DNA from: Comamonas sp. Y33R10-2 | Lineage (GTDB): Bacteria; Pseudomonadota; Gammaproteobacteria; Burkholderiales; Burkholderiaceae_C | DNA: 64,000 bases | Direction: 5' to 3' | Assembly: GCF_019355935.1 (NCBI RefSeq) | Contig: NZ_CP079925.1 | Coordinates: forward strand, 1,674,001-1,738,000 | Notes under the pieces: generated by a model | Seen by the model: only the letters and a program-made list of their open reading frames with translations | Databases searched by the model: none | What the model was told of the DNA's origin: nothing | Shown here: positions 17,974 through 29,150 of the stretch, piece after piece | Numbering within the stretch: the first letter of the stretch is position 1 | Layout: every line of letters begins with the position of its first letter | Translations under genes and position numbers: made by a program

Positions 17974-18657
17974 ATGACGCGTCCCTTTATTAAAAACACA
18001 GCCCTGCTGCCCGCCCTCTTTCTTGCGTCCTGCGCTGCCATGGTCAGTGGCGCCAGCCATGCTCAAAACTTGTATCGCTCCGTAGGCCCTGATGGCCGCG
18101 TCACCTACTCCGACCGGGTGAACACCAGCGCAAATGCAAACCCAAGCACTAACGCCAAGGCCAGTGCAGAAACAGCAGGCAATGCAGAAAGCAGTTCCGC
18201 GGCTAACGCACAACTGCCCTTTGAGCTGCGCCAGACTGCCAACCGCTACCCTGTCACGATCTACACCGGCAAGGACTGTATGCCTTGCGACGAAGCACGC
18301 AGCTTTTTGCAAAACCGCGGCATTCCTTACAGCGAACGCACGATTGAAAGCAGCAGCGATGTGGCCGCGCTCAAAAAGCTCAGCGCTCAAGAAAACCTGC
18401 CTTTTGCCACCATTGGCAACCAGCATCTCAAAGGCTTTGGCCCGGAGAACTGGAGCCAGTACTTGAATGCCGCAGGCTACCCCACGCAGTCCCTACTGCC
18501 TAAGACCTATAAAGCGGCAGCGGCCAAGCCGTTGACGGCTCCTGCGCCCACTGCTTCACCTGCGCAAAAAGCCGCAGAAGCTCAGGCCCAGCGTGAACCT
18601 ATCACCCCTGCTCCTGGAGCGCCCACACAAAACAACCCTGCAGGTCTGCGTTTCTAA
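17974..18657 (+). CDS. Exported DUF4124/glutaredoxin-like protein
   Basis: 227 residues. A signal peptide (residues 1-~29, ending SHAQ) precedes a short DUF4124 segment (LYRSVGPDGRVTYSDR, ~31-46). After a low-complexity Asn/Ala/Ser linker there is a glutaredoxin-like domain at ~85-165 with the CxxC motif CMPC in TGKDCMPCDEARSFL. The cis-Pro region NLPFATIGNQHLKGF follows, and the C-terminus is Pro/Ala-rich. It is probably a periplasmic thiol redox protein. The gene is monocistronic and its substrate is unknown. Confidence 0.85.
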   Translation: MTRPFIKNTALLPALFLASCAAMVSGASHAQNLYRSVGPDGRVTYSDRVNTSANANPSTNAKASAETAGNAESSSAANAQLPFELRQTANRYPVTIYTGKDCMPCDEARSFLQNRGIPYSERTIESSSDVAALKKLSAQENLPFATIGNQHLKGFGPENWSQYLNAAGYPTQSLLPKTYKAAAAKPLTAPAPTASPAQKAAEAQAQREPITPAPGAPTQNNPAGLRF

Positions 18658-18861
18658 AAAATGGCACGAGGCCCGCACTGAAACTGACCCTGTTTTGTAG
18701 TGCTTCGCTCCTACATCAAATGGCCTTTTGTCGCTGCGCCTCGTACTAGCGTTGCTCGAAGACGCCAACGGCAGGAGCTATTTGAAAAGGCAATAGGTGC
18801 AGCCAAGATTGCGGCCATAACTTCCAAGCAGCCTGCATGAAGCGCCGTTCAATGCCAGCGG

Positions 18862-19662
18862 TCAAAGCATCCCAAACATCGAAGCGTGATTGACCGCCTG
18901 CGCTCGCGATCTCACCTGAAGTTTTCGGTAAATGTTTTTCACATGCGTATTCACGGTCAAGGCGCTGATGTCTAACCTTTTGCCAATTTGGGCGCTGGTG
19001 AAGCCAGAGGCGACCATACGTAAAACATCTTTTTCACGATCCGACAATCGCTCGGCAATTTTGGGTTTCTCACCCAAGTGGCCGCGCAATTCAGAAATTT
19101 TATTGTCAAAGCTTTTGATCAGTCGTTTGGTGACATGGGGTGCAATAGCCGCCCCCCCATTGGCAACTTGCAAGACCGCCTGCGCGGAGTTGCCGAACCA
19201 TGAATGCTTTACCAAGTAGCCTGAGGCACCAAACTCCAGCGCTTTAATGACATTTTCATCCTCATCCATAGAGGTAATCACAATGCTTTGGCTCATTGGT
19301 CTGTGCTGTTGAAGGTAGCTCAGCAGTTGAATTCCAGAACCATCGGCCAGATGAATGTCCAGCAGCAGCACATCAAAATCAAGGCAGCGACACAAGCGCT
19401 TGCCGTCTTTGACGCCCTGCGCTTTGCCGACGATTTGAATGCGCTCATCTTGCGACAACTCGTGTTGAAGCACATTCAAAAAATGCATGTCGGCATCAAT
19501 GATCGCCACACGAACAGGGCTGGTACGTTGCCCCACCAAAAATGCTGGCCAGATCGTCGGAGGATTCTGGAAGACATCAAATACCGCATCTTTTGTTACA
19601 GCAGAAGTATCACGATTACTTGCATCTGCAACAAAGCTTGCTCCTGATTTTAATAAGTTCAT
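18862..19662 (-). CDS. LuxR/NarL-type response regulator, divergent from the repeat-protein operon
   Basis: 266 residues with a ~45-residue N-terminal extension. The receiver domain is intact: VAIIDADMHFL, phospho-acceptor Asp in VLLLDIHLADGSG (~100), IVITSMDED, and Lys in GYLVKHSW. The C-terminal LuxR helix-turn-helix runs from LSDREKDVLRMVASG to LQVRSRAQAVNH. No kinase is adjacent. It is transcribed away from the exported repeat protein at 20041, with 378 bp between start codons. This is the position CsgD has relative to curli genes. A role as activator of the downstream operon is inferred from this layout. Confidence 0.88.
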   Translation of the reverse strand: MNLLKSGASFVADASNRDTSAVTKDAVFDVFQNPPTIWPAFLVGQRTSPVRVAIIDADMHFLNVLQHELSQDERIQIVGKAQGVKDGKRLCRCLDFDVLLLDIHLADGSGIQLLSYLQQHRPMSQSIVITSMDEDENVIKALEFGASGYLVKHSWFGNSAQAVLQVANGGAAIAPHVTKRLIKSFDNKISELRGHLGEKPKIAERLSDREKDVLRMVASGFTSAQIGKRLDISALTVNTHVKNIYRKLQVRSRAQAVNHASMFGML

Positions 19663-20040
19663 AAGCCACTACTCCTCAACACAAGGGAGAACAACTGCAA
19701 ACAATAGTCACGTGCTAATGAACATTATTAGATGGATAGGGAAAATAAATAACAAATTACAACTCTTGCAGAATTTACAACTAGCAACTACCTCCGGAAA
19801 AAGATTGCAATGTTGCATTTTTTAACGCCCCATCAAAGGCATTGCTAGCGCATTTCAAGGGTTCTCGATTGCTGCCGAAAGGGTAGTGCTTGCAAGTGAT
19901 ATCGAAGATGGAACTTCAGCCGGAAACTGGAATTGAGCGATCACCCACAAGCTGCATCAACAGCACTTGCGACAGGTGTCCCGCTTTGTCTCTGGCCATG
20001 GGGGCCAAAGGTGATTTCTAACTTCCTGGGGAGCTTCATC
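19663..20040. promoter_or_regulatory. Divergent control region of the CsgG-like locus
   Basis: 378 bp with no gene; its left 160 bp is AT-rich. An inverted repeat TGCAA-TG-TTGCA (19806-19817), flanked by A and T runs, may be an operator or a small hairpin. GGGGAG 7 bases before ATG 20041 is a clear ribosome-binding site for the repeat protein. No other structure was recognised. Confidence 0.45.
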
Positions 20041-20829
20041 ATGAAATCGATTGCAATCTTTGCTCTGAGTCTTGTAGCTACAGCCGCAATGGCGGGCGGT
20101 CATTCTTCGAATGTTTCGTCAATCACCATCAGCGGCACCTCGAGCCAAACCGCCAGCATCAACGGCGGCATGGTCAACAACGCCGCGCAGTCTAAGGCCT
20201 ATGCCAATCAGAACATTGCCTCCAATAAAGGCAATATTGATATCTCAGGCACGTCGACACAAACCTCAAACCTCGAAAACGCCAAAGTTTTCAATGATGC
20301 AAAGTCTGCTGGTGATGTCGCCGTGCAAAACTTGGCCTCCAACGTTGGCGACGTGAGCATTGATCGGAGCTTTCATGTCAAGGGCAACTCCACACAAACA
20401 GCTAACGTTGTAGGTTCCACCCTCAAAAACGAGGCAAATAGCACGGGCGCGGGCTGCTCAGGCCCAGATTGCAAGGATGCTGCATTGGCCTACCAGAATG
20501 CGGCCAGCAATATGGGTGACATCAGCATCAGTGGCACTAGTAGCCAGTATGTTGGCATTACCGGTGCAAACACCACGGTATCCAACCTTGCCAAGGGTGC
20601 GAATACGGTTGCTATTCAAAACATGTCCTCCAACTACGGCAAGGTCGACATCACCGGCAATTCGACACAGAACACCTATATCGCCAATGGTGCATATGTA
20701 GCGAATTTGGCCAACGGTACGCTGGCACATGCAATTCAGAACATTGCGTCCAACGACTCCTGCGAGCCACCACCCGTGGCCTGCGTAGGTCCAGCTTGCG
20801 GCCCATACTCTTCACACGCTTCTCGCTGA
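20041..20829 (+). CDS. Exported five-repeat protein, candidate fibre (functional amyloid-like) subunit
   Basis: 262 residues. The signal peptide is residues 1-~18 (ending AMAGG). The mature part holds five imperfect repeats of ~40 residues with consensus (D/N)I(S/D)ISG(T/N)S(S/T)QT...N.A...AxQNxASNxG. The SQ/TQ positions are 36, 74, 119, 169 and 210, and the AxQN(I/L/M)xSN positions are 57, 96, 152, 193 and 233. Regular Ser, Gln, Asn and Gly spacing recalls curlin repeats (SxxxxxQxxxxN), but the sequence is not recognisably CsgA. An extra Cys pair (139, 144) lies in the third repeat, and a Cys/Pro-rich tail ends the protein. An upstream in-frame start (19933) has no signal peptide and is rejected. 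The amyloid assignment is an inference. Confidence 0.75.
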   Translation: MKSIAIFALSLVATAAMAGGHSSNVSSITISGTSSQTASINGGMVNNAAQSKAYANQNIASNKGNIDISGTSTQTSNLENAKVFNDAKSAGDVAVQNLASNVGDVSIDRSFHVKGNSTQTANVVGSTLKNEANSTGAGCSGPDCKDAALAYQNAASNMGDISISGTSSQYVGITGANTTVSNLAKGANTVAIQNMSSNYGKVDITGNSTQNTYIANGAYVANLANGTLAHAIQNIASNDSCEPPPVACVGPACGPYSSHASR

Positions 20830-20970
20830 GCCCACTACTCAGCCAGCCCTTGAGGTTCAACCCGCAAGGGGTTGGCTGAGATGCATCCGGACGCCTGAAA
20901 CGCATCTAAAGCCTATTGATGCGCTTTCAGACGTACCGCGAGCCCACCCGCTAGAGACTGGAGGCTTGTC

Positions 20971-21366
20971 ATGACTTATTTCATTTGCAGCACTTGCACC
21001 ATGCTGGCCTTGTTCGTCGTCAGCCATAGCGTATGGGCAGCTCCTGGTGAAGACCCTGTCGCGATTACCGGGCGCGTGACTTATCTCCAGCTACCCACAG
21101 CGCCGGCCTCACGCTCAACCAGCGTGCAATACATGCAAATCATGCCAGACGATGCAGCCGCAAAAGTCAGTCGATATACCGCCAAGGCTTACAGCAGCAA
21201 CTTGGGCAATATCAAAACAGAAAAAGATGTTGTTCAGTCTGTGCAGACCAATGGCACTCGAACTAACTGCTATCAATCGATAGGTAGTGTCTCAGCGCCC
21301 CGCGGTGTCGGGAACAACGAACAGGTCGTTGTTTTGCGCGGGGACGTGATCAACATCTGCAATTGA
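20971..21366 (+). CDS. Small exported protein of the CsgG-like locus
   Basis: 131 residues. A signal peptide (residues ~1-23, ending VWAAP) is followed by a ~105-residue mature domain with two late Cys residues (C100 region NCYQS and C130 near the end) that could form a disulfide. It includes AYSSNLGNIKTEKDVVQSVQTNG, partly echoing the SNxGNI motif of the repeat protein upstream. GGAGG lies 6 bases before the ATG. It has the size and position of an accessory or minor subunit (a CsgE/CsgF/CsgB-like place in the operon), but no family was recognised. Confidence 0.7.
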   Translation: MTYFICSTCTMLALFVVSHSVWAAPGEDPVAITGRVTYLQLPTAPASRSTSVQYMQIMPDDAAAKVSRYTAKAYSSNLGNIKTEKDVVQSVQTNGTRTNCYQSIGSVSAPRGVGNNEQVVVLRGDVINICN

Positions 21367-21457
21367 AATAACGGATCAAAAAAGGCGCCAGCCACTGCAC
21401 CGATTGATGCAGCCTGAAGTTGCGCCATGCCATGCATCAATCATTCAAGGGGTCATC

Positions 21458-23164
21458 ATGAAACTCACGATAGTGGAAACGGTGGCGTCAAAAAAGGCAG
21501 CGTCCAGACACATGGGCGGTTTGGCAAAGGCCGGGCATTGGCTCTGCCTGAGCGCTGTGCTACTGAGCACTGGCTGCGGCCAGTTAGATGCACGCCGCCA
21601 TACCGATGCCCATGAAATGGCCACCATCATGAACCGGCCCGTGGCGCGGCCCGTGCGCTCTATTTCAAGCTTTTCTGAGTCTCTTAGCTGCATGGATCAC
21701 ATGCTGCGTGCGGCTGAGCTACCCACCACACTGATCAGCAGCAAGCAGTTCCCCGACTTCTCGGGCAAGGTACCCGTGGCCGTCAAAGACATGGTGGTGA
21801 CATCGCTCTCTCAGATGTCCCACCTCAGCAATGCCTTTCGATACGTGGACTACGAGGTGGATATTGCGCGCCAAGACACGGTGCAAAACCTCACCACCAT
21901 TTTGCTCAACAACAACCAGATGCAGCTGCAGCGCCCCGCGCTTTATGTATCTGGAGCCATTGCGTTTGTGGACCAAAACGTGGCTAGCTTGCGCAATACA
22001 GCAGGCATATCTGGCGAGCGCGTTGATTTGGGCTACAGCAAAAGCAATACAGCCACGGTGGTTGCACTCGAGGCGCACTTGGGCGACTTTCGCACCCGCA
22101 CCATCATTCCAGGGCTTGATTCGGCCAATGAAGTCGTCATCGGTGGTGCCGGTGATGGTGTCGATCTCGCGGGGCGTATTGGCACCTATGGCGTACGTTT
22201 TAACGTGGGCCGCGACTATGCCATGGGCACGGGCGGCGCTTTACGCACTTTGGTAGATTTGGCCATGATCGAATTGGTCGGCAAATGGGCCCGCGTGCCC
22301 TACTGGCAATGCCTGATGCTGGATCAAACCAACCCACACTTTCAGCGCCAAATGCGTGATTGGTTTGACGCCAGTGGATCAGACGGGCAGTTAAAGCTGG
22401 TGCGTTCATCGCTTATCAGCCGAGGCTATCTGGGCGCAGACCAAGCCAGTCTTAGCGCCAACGCCCCAGTGCTACGTGAAGCCCTTGCCCGCTTCCAAGC
22501 CGATCGCGGAGTCACCGTCAGTGGCGTTATCAACTTCCCGACCTATGAGGCGGCACTGCGTAACTTTGTCGGTCTCAATCCGGATGGCTCACTCACCCGT
22601 ATTGGCTGGAGTAATGATGCAGTGGGGCCTGCCACTGTCGCGCAGACCCCAAGCTGGGCTATCAATTTGCAAGTTGAAAACCCACAGCCCGCAGGTTTAC
22701 GCCCCGCGTTTAGCGAGGGCGAGCAAATCTTCCTGTCGGCAACCGTCACCAAAGCGTCGCACCTTTATTGCTACTACGTCGATACCGCAGGCGCTGTGAC
22801 GAGACTGCTGCCCAATGCGCTGCAATCGAGCACCTTGGTGTCCGCTGAGCAAGCCGTGCGCATTCCAGACTGGATGAGTGCCAACCCCGGCTTTATTCTG
22901 GACGCTGGCAAGCCCGGTAACGAAGGGGTGATCTGCATCGCCACAGATACCGATGTCATGCCGAGCCTGCCAACCCAGATGCAAGGGCCTGCGCTGACGG
23001 TGATGAAAGATGTGCGCGGTACACAAGGCGTGCTGGATCAATTCCGCCAGGTGCTGGACGCTGGCAGACTCACCACGCAGACCATCCAATGGAGCGTGAC
23101 GGCACGCAATGCACCCGCCGCATCAGCAGCAGCCACTCCGGCCACCGAGCAAGGTGGCAAATAA
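21458..23164 (+). CDS. CsgG-like outer-membrane lipoprotein with peptidoglycan-binding and DUF4384-like regions
   Basis: 568 residues from ATG 21458 (AAGGGG just upstream). The lipobox LLSTGC makes Cys40 the lipidated residue. Residues ~70-280 follow the CsgG pattern: FPDFSGK, a strand pair ending FRYVDYE, ALYVSGAIAFVDQN (the 'G-A-I' strand), VALEAHLGDFRTRTI, then a glycine-rich segment and helix LVDLAMIELVGKW. Residues ~318-375 resemble a PG_binding_1 module (LISRGYLG...REALARFQADRGV). Residues ~418-500 resemble DUF4384 (GEQIFLSATVTKASHLYCYYVD). CsgG forms the nonameric curli export pore; a similar pore anchored to peptidoglycan is inferred. Domain calls are by eye. Confidence 0.65.
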   Translation: MKLTIVETVASKKAASRHMGGLAKAGHWLCLSAVLLSTGCGQLDARRHTDAHEMATIMNRPVARPVRSISSFSESLSCMDHMLRAAELPTTLISSKQFPDFSGKVPVAVKDMVVTSLSQMSHLSNAFRYVDYEVDIARQDTVQNLTTILLNNNQMQLQRPALYVSGAIAFVDQNVASLRNTAGISGERVDLGYSKSNTATVVALEAHLGDFRTRTIIPGLDSANEVVIGGAGDGVDLAGRIGTYGVRFNVGRDYAMGTGGALRTLVDLAMIELVGKWARVPYWQCLMLDQTNPHFQRQMRDWFDASGSDGQLKLVRSSLISRGYLGADQASLSANAPVLREALARFQADRGVTVSGVINFPTYEAALRNFVGLNPDGSLTRIGWSNDAVGPATVAQTPSWAINLQVENPQPAGLRPAFSEGEQIFLSATVTKASHLYCYYVDTAGAVTRLLPNALQSSTLVSAEQAVRIPDWMSANPGFILDAGKPGNEGVICIATDTDVMPSLPTQMQGPALTVMKDVRGTQGVLDQFRQVLDAGRLTTQTIQWSVTARNAPAASAAATPATEQGGK

Positions 23165-23165
23165 G

Positions 23166-24491
23166 ATGGCCCGCCCAACGCAGCAGCAAAGCGCACCGCA
23201 TCGCAAAGTTCTGCACATAAGGCGACTCGCCCTTGTCCAGAGCCTAGGCTTTCTACTGCTTTGTTGCGCATTTGCAGGCGGGGTTCCCCATGCCCGCACT
23301 CGGTCTGCGCAAGCAGCCCAGTGGGGCATCTCCACCCCCCAGCCAGCACCTCTTGAGAGTAGGCCATTAAACACGCCCGCCATCACACCTCTTGCGCCGG
23401 ATACGCAACGCATTGAGGAGCCGCCCCCACCCTCTGCAGCCCCTGACATCACTGCTGCACCCGTGGCATCTTCAACGCCACTCATCGTGCGTGACAGTGG
23501 CAGCAAGGCATTGCAGCGTGAGTTGGAGCAACTACAAAAAGCCGCTAGCCCCCGCAGCGGCTATGGCAGCACCACAGCAGCGGCGCAGGCCGCATGGCAA
23601 CTGGGGCTGATTTATTTGCATGGCGCGGGTGTGCGCATCGATCTGCCTCAGGCTCAACTGTGGTTTGAGCGCGCTGCCAAGCAAGGGCGCGAGCCTTGGG
23701 CCTATGCCGGTCTGGCTTGGTGCGCCATTGATGGTTGCGGCGCGCCAGCCAACCCAGGCGAGGCAGCCAAAGCGATTTCTCGGCTGCGCGCCACATACCC
23801 CGCTCGCGCCGATTTTCTGGCATGGCTGCAGGCCAGTCGCCTCAAGCCCATTCAAGTCAGCACACCGGCCAACACCGCAAACCCCATATCGGTTCACAGA
23901 CTGACGGGGTCTGAGCGGCAATTGCTGGAACGTGCCGCGGCCGCTGGCGACACGCAAGCCAATATCGAGCTAGGCATTCAGGCCTTTGCCAGCAGGCAAA
24001 TGCCGCTGGCTGAAAATTACTTGCGCCGCGCCGCCTCGCGCTCCGTAGTCGCTGCAAACAACCTGACCGCGGTTCGTCGGCTCGAAAAAAATGGCCTAAA
24101 TGCGGCCAACTCCTTTGCTGCCCCCTCCTCTGCGGCCCCAGAAGGTTCAGCCCAAGCTGCGCTCAACATGGCCCGCATGTACCACCTAGGGCAAGGCGTG
24201 CCAGCCAATTACGCCGAAGCGCTGCGCTTTTACCGCTTGGCCGAGCAACGCGGCAGCAAGGAGGCGCACAAAATGATTGAGCTGATTTTTTCAAGGCCCT
24301 TGCAAGGCGCCGGGCTGGGCGGCGGTCTTGACCCCGCCTGGATGCAGCAACTTGCCAGAGCCGACCTGAGCCAGACGACACCCGTAATTACAACGGGCAG
24401 CACCACCGCACAGTTGCAGCGTGAGCCGTCGCCACTTTTTGACCTACTGGCCCAACCGTGGCAAAGGCGGCTGCTGCAAATCACTCAGTGA
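23166..24491 (+). CDS. Membrane-anchored or exported Sel1-repeat protein of the CsgG-like locus
   Basis: 441 residues from ATG 23166, one base after the CsgG-like stop codon, so translation is probably coupled. A hydrophobic segment (LALVQSLGFLLLCCAFAGG, ~22-40) is a signal peptide or anchor, followed by a Pro/Ala-rich linker. Sel1/TPR-like helical repeats are visible at ~137-175 (AWQLGLIYLHGAGV) and ~330-365 (ALNMARMYHLGQGV, YAEALRFYRLAEQRG), with a degenerate one near 250. Such repeats scaffold protein complexes. A periplasmic partner for the CsgG-like pore is inferred. An upstream in-frame ATG inside the preceding gene (23109) is unlikely. Confidence 0.75.
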   Translation: MARPTQQQSAPHRKVLHIRRLALVQSLGFLLLCCAFAGGVPHARTRSAQAAQWGISTPQPAPLESRPLNTPAITPLAPDTQRIEEPPPPSAAPDITAAPVASSTPLIVRDSGSKALQRELEQLQKAASPRSGYGSTTAAAQAAWQLGLIYLHGAGVRIDLPQAQLWFERAAKQGREPWAYAGLAWCAIDGCGAPANPGEAAKAISRLRATYPARADFLAWLQASRLKPIQVSTPANTANPISVHRLTGSERQLLERAAAAGDTQANIELGIQAFASRQMPLAENYLRRAASRSVVAANNLTAVRRLEKNGLNAANSFAAPSSAAPEGSAQAALNMARMYHLGQGVPANYAEALRFYRLAEQRGSKEAHKMIELIFSRPLQGAGLGGGLDPAWMQQLARADLSQTTPVITTGSTTAQLQREPSPLFDLLAQPWQRRLLQITQ

Positions 24492-24529
24492 GCTAAGTGT
24501 TCGCAGTGATAAAAAGCATACTAAATTGA

Positions 24530-25552
24530 TTAGTTCGGGCGCTTTTCAAACGCGTATTTTTCAGTATCCACCTCACCCTGGCCTTGCACCGCATAACGGT
24601 CACCCACCACAGCTTCAGGTTTGAAGATGTCGCTGAGCTCGGCCAAGATTTCAGCGCTGAGCTTGACGCTGCCGCCGCGCACGTCTTCACGTAGGTGGTC
24701 CACGCTGGTAGTGCCGGGCAGCGCAATGATGTGATCGCCTTGCGCCAGCACCCAAGCAATGGCCAGCTCAGCCAAGGTGCAACCCGCTTTTTCAGCCACG
24801 GCCTGCATGGGACTGAGCAAGCGCAGGTTTTGCGCATAGGCTTCGCCCGCAAAGCGCGGCATGGTGGCGCGGATGTCGCCCTTCACCAAGTTATCCACCT
24901 GCTGGAGCTTGCCGCTCAAAAATGCGCGGCCCATGGGGCTGAAGGCCACGTAGGCAATACCCAGTTCCTTACAAGCGGCCAGCGTGCCCAGCTCGGCATT
25001 GCGCGACCACAGTGAATATTCGCTTTGCAGGGCGGCAATGGGGTGCTCTTTGTGCGCGCGGCGCAGGGCATCAACGCCCACTTCCGACAGGCACAACTCG
25101 CGAATCTTGCCTTCTTCTTTTAGCCGTGCCATCTCGCCGACTGACTCTTCGATGGGTACGTTTTTGTCCCAGCGGTGCAAGTAGTACAGGTCCATCACGT
25201 CCGTGCCCAAACGCTGCAAGCTGTCTTCACAATTTTGGCGCAGGGTTTTGGGGCGACCGTCGATCACGCGGCGCACCACACCATCTTCACCACGCACACC
25301 GGCCATGCCGCCTTTGCTGGCCAAGGTGATGTGGTTGCGGTGGGGCTTGAGCACGGGGCCGACCAGTGATTCGCTAGCGCCAAAGCCATACAGTGCTGCG
25401 GTGTCGAACATCGTCACGCCCGCATCAATCGCAGCGTGCAGCACCGCGTGAGATTGTTCGGTGGACACGGGGCTTCCGTAGGCGTGGCAGAAGTTCATGC
25501 AGCCCAGCGCAACGTTGGCGACGCTAAAAGGGCCTAAAGGACGGTTTTGCAC
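24530..25552 (-). CDS. Aldo/keto reductase
   Basis: 340 residues, NADPH-dependent oxidoreductase of the AKR superfamily. The catalytic tetrad is visible: Asp in MFDTAALYG (~50) with Tyr four residues on, Lys in LASKGG, and His in YYLHRWD. The C-terminal NADP-binding end (AQGDHIIALPGTTSVDHLRED) is intact. Substrate is unknown. It is transcribed on the same strand as the pmd operon that lies upstream, but a terminator and a repeat separate them, so it is likely a separate unit. It converges with the Sel1 gene. Confidence 0.92.
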   Translation of the reverse strand: MQNRPLGPFSVANVALGCMNFCHAYGSPVSTEQSHAVLHAAIDAGVTMFDTAALYGFGASESLVGPVLKPHRNHITLASKGGMAGVRGEDGVVRRVIDGRPKTLRQNCEDSLQRLGTDVMDLYYLHRWDKNVPIEESVGEMARLKEEGKIRELCLSEVGVDALRRAHKEHPIAALQSEYSLWSRNAELGTLAACKELGIAYVAFSPMGRAFLSGKLQQVDNLVKGDIRATMPRFAGEAYAQNLRLLSPMQAVAEKAGCTLAELAIAWVLAQGDHIIALPGTTSVDHLREDVRGGSVKLSAEILAELSDIFKPEAVVGDRYAVQGQGEVDTEKYAFEKRPN

Positions 25553-25693: not shown

Positions 25694-26652
25694 TTATTCT
25701 GCGTTCAGTTGCTGCTCCAGATCATGCAGAACCTTGTAGCAGTTATAGACTTGCTGAACGCTGGAGTTAGGCTCGCGGCCTTCGCGGATGGCGGCGAAGA
25801 ATTCGCGGTCTTGCAGCTCAATGCCGTTCATGGACACATCCACCTTGGACACGTCAATTTGTTCTTCCTTGCCGGTGTAAAGATCGTCGTAACGGGCCAG
25901 ATAAGTGCCGGTATCGCCGATGTAGCGGAAGAAAGTACCCAGAGGGCCATCGTTGTTGAACGACAGGCTCAAAGTACAGATAGCACCGTTGGCGGCCTTG
26001 AGCTGAATGCTCATGTCCATGGCAATACCCAGATCCTTGTGGATCGGGCCTTGCACGGCGTTGGCCTTGACGATGGGGCTGCCAGCTTGATAGGCGAACA
26101 GATCCACGGTGTGGGCAGCGTGGTGCCACAGCAGGTGATCGGTCCAGCTACGGGCCTGGCCCAGCGCATTCATGTTGGTGCGGCGGAAGAAGTAGGTTTG
26201 CACATCCATTTGCTGAATGTTGAACTCGCCCGCTTCAATCTTTTGGTGCACGTACTGGTGGCTGGGGTTGAAGCGGCGGGTGTGGCCCACCATAGCAACC
26301 AGACCGGTTTGCTTTTGCAGCTCGGCCACTTCCTGCGCATCCTTTAAGGCATCGGCCAGAGGGATTTCAACTTGCACATGCTTGCCGGCCTTTAAGCACT
26401 GAATGCTTTGGGCTGCGTGCATTTGCGTGGGGGTGCACAAAATGACGGCATCGACTTCAGGCAGCGCCAGCGCATCAGCCAAATCGGTGCAGACATGCTT
26501 GATGCCGTACTTATCAGCCACTTCCTGGGTTTGCTCCAGGCGGCGACCGATCAGGGAGACGACTTCAACGCCGTCGATATTCTTGATGCCATCCAGGTGC
26601 TTGATGCCAAAGGCGCCAGCGCCAGCCAAGGCGACTTTAATGGTCTTGCTCA

Positions 26653-26653
<1 letters not shown>
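25694..26653 (-). CDS. pmdC: 4-carboxy-2-hydroxymuconate-6-semialdehyde dehydrogenase
   Basis: 319 residues, GFO/IDH/MocA family (LigC-like). It oxidises the protocatechuate ring-cleavage product (as its hemiacetal) to 2-pyrone-4,6-dicarboxylate with NAD(P)+. The Rossmann motif is VALAGAGAFGIKHLDG (~7-22), VDAVILCTPTQMHA and EIPLADA follow, and MVGHTRRFNPSHQYV is the conserved central segment. Its start overlaps the pmdB stop by one base (TAATG). It is the last gene of the operon and is followed by a terminator. Confidence 0.93.
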
Positions 26654-27525
<872 letters not shown>

Positions 27526-27984
27526 TTAGTTACCTTCCTTATTCGTGTTGCCAGCAGCGCCCGCTGCACCTTGCGGCTGACGATGCGCTTGTGCATCGCC
27601 GTCTTCGCCCACATACCGATTGCCTTCAGCCGAACGACCACCACCGACCATCATGGCGCGGTACTCGTCTTCGGTCATGCCGGTCATAGAGCCCGCCATT
27701 TGCTGGAAGCTCTTGCCGTCGGTCGAGCCGATCTTGGCCAGAAAATAAATATTGCCGCCCGTGCGCATGCACCAGTTCAGATCGCGCGCCAGCACGGCTT
27801 GCTTTTGCTCTTCCGTCATCGCCCACTCATCCAAGTAGGCGCGCTCATTGGCGCGAAAACGGTCACGGTTGTCGGCCTTCATCAGCGACATGCAAAACTG
27901 GTTGAGCCAGTAACCACGGCGCGATTGCTCGGCATCAAAAATGATGGTGCCGGGCACATCAAGATAAGGTTTTTCTAATGCCAT
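27526..27984 (-). CDS. pmdA: Protocatechuate 4,5-dioxygenase alpha subunit
   Basis: 152 residues, LigA family, mostly helical small subunit that covers the active site of PmdB. Recognisable segments are GTIIFDAEQSRRGYWLNQF, CMSLMKADNRDRF and LARDLNWCMRTGGNIYFLAK. The tail after ~125 is low-complexity Gly/Ala-rich and looks lineage-specific. It is immediately upstream of pmdB, with a GAGAGGAAAG-type ribosome-binding site before the ATG. Confidence 0.95.
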   Translation of the reverse strand: MALEKPYLDVPGTIIFDAEQSRRGYWLNQFCMSLMKADNRDRFRANERAYLDEWAMTEEQKQAVLARDLNWCMRTGGNIYFLAKIGSTDGKSFQQMAGSMTGMTEDEYRAMMVGGGRSAEGNRYVGEDGDAQAHRQPQGAAGAAGNTNKEGN

Positions 27985-28049
27985 AAAACTTTCCTCTCAA
28001 ACCTTGTCACAAGCAGGTCGCCCTGCCCTTAAAACTGGCGCAATCCAAA

Positions 28050-28147
28050 CCAAAGACACCGAGGAAGCGCCGCCGCGCACCGAGGGTGTCGTCCCCATCC
28101 CGATGCAACGCATCGAGAGAGGGGGAAGGCGCAAAACGCCTCAGGAG
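28050..28147 (-). repeat. GC-rich intergenic repeat, copy C, inside the pmd operon
   Basis: Reverse complement of the family at 15506 and 60342: on the minus strand CCTGAGGCGTTTTGCGCCTTCCCCC..., then GACGACACCCTCGGTGCG...TCGGTGTCTTTGG. It fills most of the pmdD-pmdA gap and starts at the pmdD stop codon. It is more diverged than copies A and B. It may fold in the polycistronic mRNA. Confidence 0.7.
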
Positions 28148-28152
28148 GTGCT

Positions 28153-29070
28153 TCAGACTTCTTCTGGCCAGTACAGGCGCATAGGGTTGTCCACCAGCAG
28201 CTTTTGCTGCAGCTCAGCCGTAGGCGCAATGTGGGGGATAAAGTCCACCAGCAGGCCGTCGTCAGGCATGTGATCCTTGAGATTCGGATGCGGCCAATCG
28301 GTTCCCCACAGCACACGGTCAGGGAATTCTTCCACCACGCGGCGCGCAAATGGCACAACGTCTTGATAGGCGTTTTGCTCGCCATCCAGCGCCTTGGGGC
28401 CGGTCACTGACAAGCGCTCAGGGCAAGACACCTTGCTCCACACATTTTGGTGCTCGCGCATGAATTTCAGGAATAGAGCGAACTCTTCGCTATCCACACC
28501 CTTTTCCACGTTGGGGCGACCCATATGGTCCACCACCACGGTGGTGGGCAGTGCAGTGAAGAAGTCCCACAGCTCAGGCAAGTCCACCGCTTCAAAGTAA
28601 ATCACCACATGCCAGCCCAGCTTGTTGATGCGGGCGGCGATTTCCATCAGCTCGTCCTTGGGCGTGAAGTCCACCAGACGCTTGACGAAGTTAAAACGCA
28701 CGCCGCGCACGCCGGCGTCGTGCAGCTCTTGCAGTTCCGCATCGCTAATCGAGCGCTTGACCGTGGCCACACCACGGGCCATGCCGCCCGAGGCCTTGCA
28801 GGCATCGACCATGGCTCGGTTGTCTGCACCGTGGCATGTGGCTTGCACCACCACGTTGCGGGCAAAACCCAGATGGTCACGCAATGCAAACAGCTGCGCC
28901 TTGCTGGCGTCGCAAGGGGTGTACTTGCGCTCGGGAGCGAAGGGAAATTCTTCACCGGGGCCGAACACGTGGCAGTGCGCATCAACAGCACCTGCAGGCA
29001 GCTTGAATTGGGGCTTGGTGGGGTTGGCGTACCAGTCCATCCAGCCGGGGGTCTTTGTGAAAGTGCTCAT
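28153..29070 (-). CDS. pmdD: 2-pyrone-4,6-dicarboxylate hydrolase
   Basis: 305 residues from ATG 29068-29070. Amidohydrolase superfamily, LigI type. It opens the lactone of 2-pyrone-4,6-dicarboxylate to 4-oxalomesaconate. The N-terminal AVDAHCHVFGPG holds the metal/active-site histidine pair region, VVQATCHGADNRAMV is conserved, and the C-terminal LWGTDWPHPN contains the catalytic Asp. An upstream in-frame start (29136) would add 22 residues from a tandemly repeated 21-bp sequence without family similarity. Confidence 0.94.
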   Translation of the reverse strand: MSTFTKTPGWMDWYANPTKPQFKLPAGAVDAHCHVFGPGEEFPFAPERKYTPCDASKAQLFALRDHLGFARNVVVQATCHGADNRAMVDACKASGGMARGVATVKRSISDAELQELHDAGVRGVRFNFVKRLVDFTPKDELMEIAARINKLGWHVVIYFEAVDLPELWDFFTALPTTVVVDHMGRPNVEKGVDSEEFALFLKFMREHQNVWSKVSCPERLSVTGPKALDGEQNAYQDVVPFARRVVEEFPDRVLWGTDWPHPNLKDHMPDDGLLVDFIPHIAPTAELQQKLLVDNPMRLYWPEEV

Positions 29071-29150
29071 AGCGAATGCGAAATGCAAAGTGCGGAATGC
29101 GATTGCGAAAGTGCAGCGGTGCACAAGGCACCGCAATACGTCAAAACGGC

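Follow-up and report, generated by a model that had tools for sequence, protein, structure and literature searches.

The closest described counterparts of the locus reported here are the curli, holdfast, Fap and MafA systems. In curli, according to excerpts of PMC10192328 and PMC12822426, CsgG exports an unfolded repeat protein which folds outside the cell into a solenoid stacked on a nucleator, the curlin repeat unit being approximately 23 residues long (excerpt of PMC10192328). HfaB of Caulobacter has small secreted partners, HfaA and HfaD, in the same gene cluster (excerpt of PMC6707917), while FapF is a trimeric beta-barrel with a coiled-coil (excerpt of PMC12822426) and MafA of Neisseria is an outer-membrane oligomer, supposedly a lipoprotein, with CsgG-reminiscent properties and needed for secretion of MafB (excerpt of PMC7738311). 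The present locus lies in a stretch of 64,000 nucleotides (the window; contig NZ_CP079925.1, positions 1,674,001 to 1,738,000) from the single-contig 3.84-Mb genome of Comamonas sp. Y33R10-2, and residue and coordinate numbers refer to the window. One minus-strand regulator gene stands opposite four plus-strand genes, which encode a repeat protein, a 131-residue secreted protein, a lipoprotein and a Sel1-repeat protein, with successive gaps of 378, 141, 91 and 1 bases; the five genes and the divergent orientation of the regulator, predicted earlier from the DNA sequence, were all confirmed by coordinates. The reading we favour, with a probability somewhat better than even, is that the locus, under two-component control, encodes an HfaB-like outer-membrane exporter which is tethered to peptidoglycan and whose substrate is a self-assembling solenoid protein.

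The gene set is conserved, and the lipoprotein, repeat protein and 131-residue protein travel as one unit. Among 200 genomes of the family (the same 200 for all three alignments, own genome included) the 131-residue protein was present in 24, the repeat protein in 27, the three beyond the common set being marginal (E ~6e-4), and the lipoprotein in 45, with 24 matches at E <= 1e-160 and the other 21 at 6.7e-76 or weaker. The identical 24 genomes hold the 131-residue protein, the full-length lipoprotein and the repeat protein, at adjacent places in each, and the original prediction, which had named a lack of co-occurrence in relatives as grounds for its refutation, is not refuted on this point; the chance of two identical sets of 24 out of 200 for independent genes is ~1e-31, a value that is too strong given shared ancestry. 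Across the phylum the lipoprotein profile matched 27 of 397 genomes, weak and partial matches counted. A survey of one genome per species yielded 48 loci, with the regulator in 38, the repeat protein in 43, the 131-residue protein in 42 and the Sel1 protein in 45. Absences mostly represent contig ends, as for the three loci without a Sel1 gene (L004, L011 and L042), where the contig stops within or just past the lipoprotein gene. The regulator was not recognised in L034, L038, L043 and L046 although upstream sequence is present (~1.2 kb only in L043), nor the 131-residue protein in L043 and L046 (Lysobacter); L034 has a likely repeat protein, by eye only. Similarity of the locus genes and of the neighbouring aldo/keto reductase gene places the window closest to Comamonas, with L001 (C. 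suwonensis) and L035 (C. testosteroni). Two copies of the repeat protein, 131-residue protein and lipoprotein were observed in one genome, G568 (C1 ~1767300-1769700; C2 ~503000-505900).

We regard it as well supported, and highly probable, that the lipoprotein is a member of the HfaB/CsgG superfamily. By profile its nearest relative is HfaB (97.7%, E 1.7e-12), closer than curli CsgG, so that the likeness to HfaB drawn earlier was apt, while a structure search with the lipoprotein model returned CsgG structures as best matches, the membrane-bound ones first, and the monomer model contains four long strands of 12-27 residues. Pfam family CsgG (PF03783) had no match in the own genome, nor was it one of the 13 families that 73 relatives match at E <= 1, and Pfam, NCBIfam and PDB sequence searches gave scattered weak hits, with neither CsgG nor another convincing match for the core; the fold of the predicted CsgG-like core is upheld by structure matches and the wide profile. 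The predicted lipobox holds, as 70 of the 73 relatives keep its cysteine (residue 40), the next position in all 70 being A, G, S or T, with no case of D, a signal that fits an outer-membrane lipoprotein. The two further modules that had been proposed fared differently, DUF4384 being matched firmly in the window protein (Pfam, 6.8e-16) and in 73/73 relatives, whereas PG_binding_1 stays under its cut-off in the window protein and is matched in 72/73 relatives at E <= 1 (best 6.3e-8). Because of its homology to CsgG-type exporters the lipoprotein should be a channel, and we think it likely that the repeat protein and the 131-residue protein are its cargo.

Several observations concern the wider lipoprotein family. 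Two Pfam-recognised CsgG proteins of other families (L052 and L053) end, by eye, in a peptidoglycan-binding-like module, and wall tethering of CsgG-type proteins may therefore be commoner. More distant lipoprotein paralogues lie, by eye, downstream of a caspase-like protease gene in L116 and L118. L112, L113 and further family genomes carry a second, shorter paralogue family of ~400 residues matching profile residues 154-360; the two members that were aligned show no DUF4384 part.

The repeat protein is defined by the marker Q-[NSQA]-x-[ASGT]-[ST]-N, counted over 44 family members (the L001 protein being truncated). The five repeats predicted for the window protein are present as five markers, spaced by 39, 56, 41 and 40 residues, and the family contains 171 markers, where shuffled sequences average 2.5. 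Spacing is 37-43 residues in 115 of 127 cases, and exactly 39 in 60. Three markers occur in 20 proteins, five in 14, seven in four, two in four, four in one and one in one; odd numbers (3, 5 or 7) thus account for 38/44, and this predominance suggests growth by two 39-residue units at a time. Five- and seven-repeat proteins often have, by eye, a two-cysteine loop between the second and third markers, and the C-terminal tail of the protein has conserved cysteines, C241 and C248. The mature part contains 12.7% N, 14.3% S, 13.5% A, 10.2% G, 7.8% T and 4.5% Q. AlphaFold2 predicts a beta-solenoid, with a mean predicted local distance difference test (pLDDT) score of 77 and a predicted template modelling (pTM) score of 0.77; over 21 ten-residue blocks spanning residues 31-240, pLDDT is 79-92 in 19 and 73 and 69 in two. 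Pfam gave no family for the window protein, Pfam and NCBIfam none that was consistent in 40 members, and Foldseek and VIA searches with the solenoid produced generic weak solenoid matches only. Similar repeats are found by hidden Markov model (HMM) in small secreted proteins upstream of distant lipoproteins in L101 (3.7e-6), L100 (=L077; 3e-6) and L105 (=L082; 1e-5), and by eye only in L102, L103 and L110; none was recognised upstream in L106-L109.

In the 131-residue protein C100 and C130 are invariant in 31 aligned family sequences, and its C-terminal strand reads QVVVLRGDLVNIC. It had no Pfam match, and apart from scattered weak hits neither NCBIfam nor PDB sequence searches gave CsgG, curlin or another convincing match for it or for the repeat protein. 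Of 11 distant loci, two have a related C-terminus next to the lipoprotein, namely L100 and L105, the latter (=L082) also matching the family HMM at 3e-5, and a looser version is seen by eye in L119 and L121. The fourth plus-strand product has the predicted Sel1 repeats (Pfam, 3.2e-13), while the distant loci L102, L103 and L104 have OmpA-domain proteins downstream of the lipoprotein, L102 with a Sel1 protein as well.

Receiver residues D56, D58, D102, S/T130 and K152 are kept in 35-37 of 37 aligned regulator relatives, and the window regulator retains them. The original prediction omitted a histidine kinase gene which neighbour clustering (48 loci and the window) places right behind the regulator, on the same strand, in 32/38 regulator-bearing loci; four of the 32 kinases were scanned and have HATPase_c and HisKA_3 matches, HisKA_3 being just under the cut-off in one. 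The set therefore usually has its own two-component switch. The regulator loci with no kinase gene at that place are L029, L031, L032 and L035 (C. testosteroni), and L004 and L007, which stop at a contig edge. The window has no kinase gene at that position, and the closest match to the kinase in the remainder of its genome reaches 36% over the kinase core; the regulator here therefore looks orphan.

Taken together, the interpretation offered in the original prediction is partly supported, and we infer the following sequence of events. Lipidated lipoprotein subunits would oligomerise into an outer-membrane pore forming a channel, while their C-terminal modules, in the periplasm, would bind peptidoglycan and hold the ring to it; the presumed helper is the Sel1 protein or, in some distant relatives, an OmpA-domain protein. 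The repeat protein would be exported unfolded, fold outside by stacking its 39-residue units and polymerise end to end into a fibre or adhesive layer; for fibre formation itself we see an even chance. The 131-residue protein may nucleate the repeat protein or hold it at the pore, in a CsgB/CsgF-like or HfaA-like role, and the response regulator would turn the gene set on, presumably after phosphorylation by the adjoining kinase in most relatives.

Certain results weigh against a wall-tethered, CsgG-type exporter with a fibre-forming substrate. The PG_binding_1 match in the window lipoprotein (3e-4, 21.3 bits) lies under the 23-bit cut-off, and confidence in the lipoprotein model is modest (pLDDT 68, pTM 0.38). 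With the narrow alignment A1, hhalign gave 33% when ten CsgG sequences were the target and 9% when there were two, and the wide profile reached 79.8% against two curli-type CsgG sequences alone; the CsgG comparison became convincing only after the alignment was widened with distant relatives. A membrane-strand alternation test on the lipoprotein was not significant (p 0.15 to 0.72), and was set aside as uninformative, since genuine CsgG and HfaB do not pass such a test either. In nine of the 11 distant lipoprotein loci the motif used recognised no two-cysteine partner, and in L002 the regulator and kinase genes are oriented in the same way as the repeat gene rather than divergently. The solenoid had no significant PDB match, FapC fibril 9u4u (E 0.46) and CsgA (E 0.77) appearing amid many other solenoids.

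This absence of a significant structural match to known amyloids would suit a repeat protein that forms no fibre, acting as a monomeric adhesin or released protein, with the pore as a CsgG-like secretion channel such as is proposed for MafA. The precedent of a CsgG-reminiscent oligomer required for MafB secretion (excerpt of PMC7738311) and the conserved tail cysteines C241 and C248, which could cap the solenoid, point in the same direction; the repeat protein is, however, small and regular, differs between relatives in the number of its repeats and occurs as a tandem pair in L031 and L032, which is the pattern of a polymerising subunit, and we judge the monomeric alternative unlikely. Similarly improbable in our estimation is a polysaccharide anchor or exporter, with a lipoprotein ring acting in the manner of PelC, or of HfaB as it holds the holdfast, and with the repeat protein as a sugar-binding part at the surface. 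The lipoprotein might also belong to the CsgG/LptE/PelC/FlgT-like fold group as a periplasmic scaffold which binds peptidoglycan and senses the state of the envelope, forming no pore, but its best structure matches are to CsgG, membrane-bound forms first, its model strands are of 12-27 residues and it is strictly linked to secreted small proteins, making such a role very improbable. The tethered exporter of a self-assembling solenoid remains our preferred reading, and the features assigned under it are collected in Table 1.

Table 1. Window coordinates of the genes and parts of the locus
Feature	Position	Strand	Basis
NarL/LuxR-type response regulator (REC + GerE), orphan at the locus	18862..19662	-	Pfam Response_reg + GerE
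Divergent intergenic region, 378 bp, presumed control region	19663..20040	no strand	coordinates
Secreted repeat protein, 262 aa, five ~39-residue units, predicted beta-solenoid, presumed exported subunit	20041..20829	+	repeat count, AlphaFold2
Solenoid region of repeat protein, residues 27-235	20119..20745	+	model secondary structure
131-aa secreted protein, cysteines C100 + C130, C-terminal QVVVLRGDVINIC strand; presumed surface partner, nucleator or plug	20971..21366	+	alignment
Lipoprotein, 568 aa, HfaB/CsgG-like pore subunit + peptidoglycan-binding-like + DUF4384 modules	21458..23164	+	
Lipobox cysteine of lipoprotein, residue 40	21575..21577	+	relatives' alignment
CsgG-like core of lipoprotein, residues 68-289; four strands of 12-27 residues at residues 162-255	21659..22324	+	
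PG_binding_1-like module of lipoprotein, residues 311-365	22388..22552	+	Pfam
DUF4384 module of lipoprotein, residues 418-498	22709..22951	+	Pfam
Sel1-repeat protein, 441 aa, N-terminus looks exported	23166..24491	+	Sel1 3.2e-13

An in-frame TTG at 19933 would lengthen the open reading frame of the repeat protein, while the ATG at 20041 opens an apparent signal peptide; the Sel1 gene begins 1 base past the lipoprotein stop. A sigma-70-type promoter search of 18600-24700 gave no match, against 3.5 expected in shuffles. Next to the regulator, 17974-18657 encodes a DUF4124-glutaredoxin fusion, by eye with a signal peptide, on whose other side an M3 peptidase gene lies. On the minus strand, 25694-29136 holds genes for LigA, LigB, a GFO/IDH-type oxidoreductase and an amidohydrolase, which look like a protocatechuate 4,5-cleavage cluster.

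If our reading is true, the few known CsgG-type exporters are joined by one that has a substrate family to itself and a pore carrying its own wall-binding module, and it becomes a testable question whether solenoid-forming surface proteins, of interchangeable repeat families, broadly leave the cell through CsgG/HfaB-type channels. The exact linkage allows the 131-residue family and DUF4384 to be studied as parts of one machine. Source names in the protein search were mostly 'hypothetical protein', 'DUF4384' or 'peptidoglycan-binding', most rows being nameless, so that a factor for biofilm formation or adhesion in these bacteria may have gone unnoticed.

In comparison with curli, the locus shares the CsgG fold of the exporter, a predicted beta-solenoid repeat protein of variable repeat number and a LuxR-type regulator divergent from the subunit gene, whereas its repeat unit is of 39 residues and not ~23. 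The csgD analogy drawn earlier is loose since, unlike CsgD, the regulator keeps canonical receiver residues and usually adjoins a kinase gene, while the pore gene lies beside its presumed substrates; the CsgD model NF007505 scored 46 bits against the regulator, where the cut-off is 250. Curlin (PF07012), CsgE (PF10627) and CsgF (PF10614) had no match in the genome, curlin was absent from the best 25 of 36 families matched by 40 repeat proteins, and curlin motifs were not enriched in 44 repeat proteins (2 and 6 versus 5.1 and 9.4 in shuffled sequences). Curli as the system was rejected, owing to the lack of curlin repeats and of a CsgE, CsgF or CsgD match. With the Caulobacter holdfast system the locus shares a CsgG-like-core lipoprotein, of the same N-terminal layout as HfaB by eye ([FY]S..L.CM ... 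D[FY][ST]G), and the clustering of small secreted proteins with it as in HfaABD; the lipoprotein differs from HfaB by the added peptidoglycan-binding-like and DUF4384 modules (568 residues versus 331-343 in seven HfaB), and the two-component regulator and Sel1 protein are the locus's own. The HfaD model NF037936 had no match in the genome, and against seven HfaA sequences the 131-residue family gave 0.8% and the repeat family 0.2%, the rest of the genome not having been searched for HfaA. The HfaABD holdfast anchor as the system was likewise rejected, with no HfaD match in the genome and small proteins unlike HfaA. The earlier statement that no subunit is recognisably a csg or hfa protein is accordingly right for the two small proteins and too strong for the pore protein. 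Fap also has a secreted imperfect-repeat subunit, and the FapC fibril was among the weak, non-significant solenoid matches, yet the FapF barrel is, by description, unlike the CsgG-like ring of the locus, no search for fap genes having been made. MafA and MafB resemble it, by description only, in combining a CsgG-reminiscent oligomer with a dedicated secreted protein, although the MafB substrate is a toxin as opposed to a repeat solenoid. It is conceivable, at slightly under even probability, that Proteobacteria have here a self-assembling surface fibre of a separate kind, which is neither curli nor Fap nor the holdfast anchor; in it a wall-tethered HfaB/CsgG-type pore would export a non-curlin solenoid of 39-residue units, with a disulfide-bearing partner as nucleator and a two-component switch of its own. 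The exporter superfamily is already known and the gene set apparently undescribed, a search of open-licence PMC papers having returned no published description among the matches listed; as membership of curli and of HfaABD also failed, we regard the locus as a new variant within a known superfamily.

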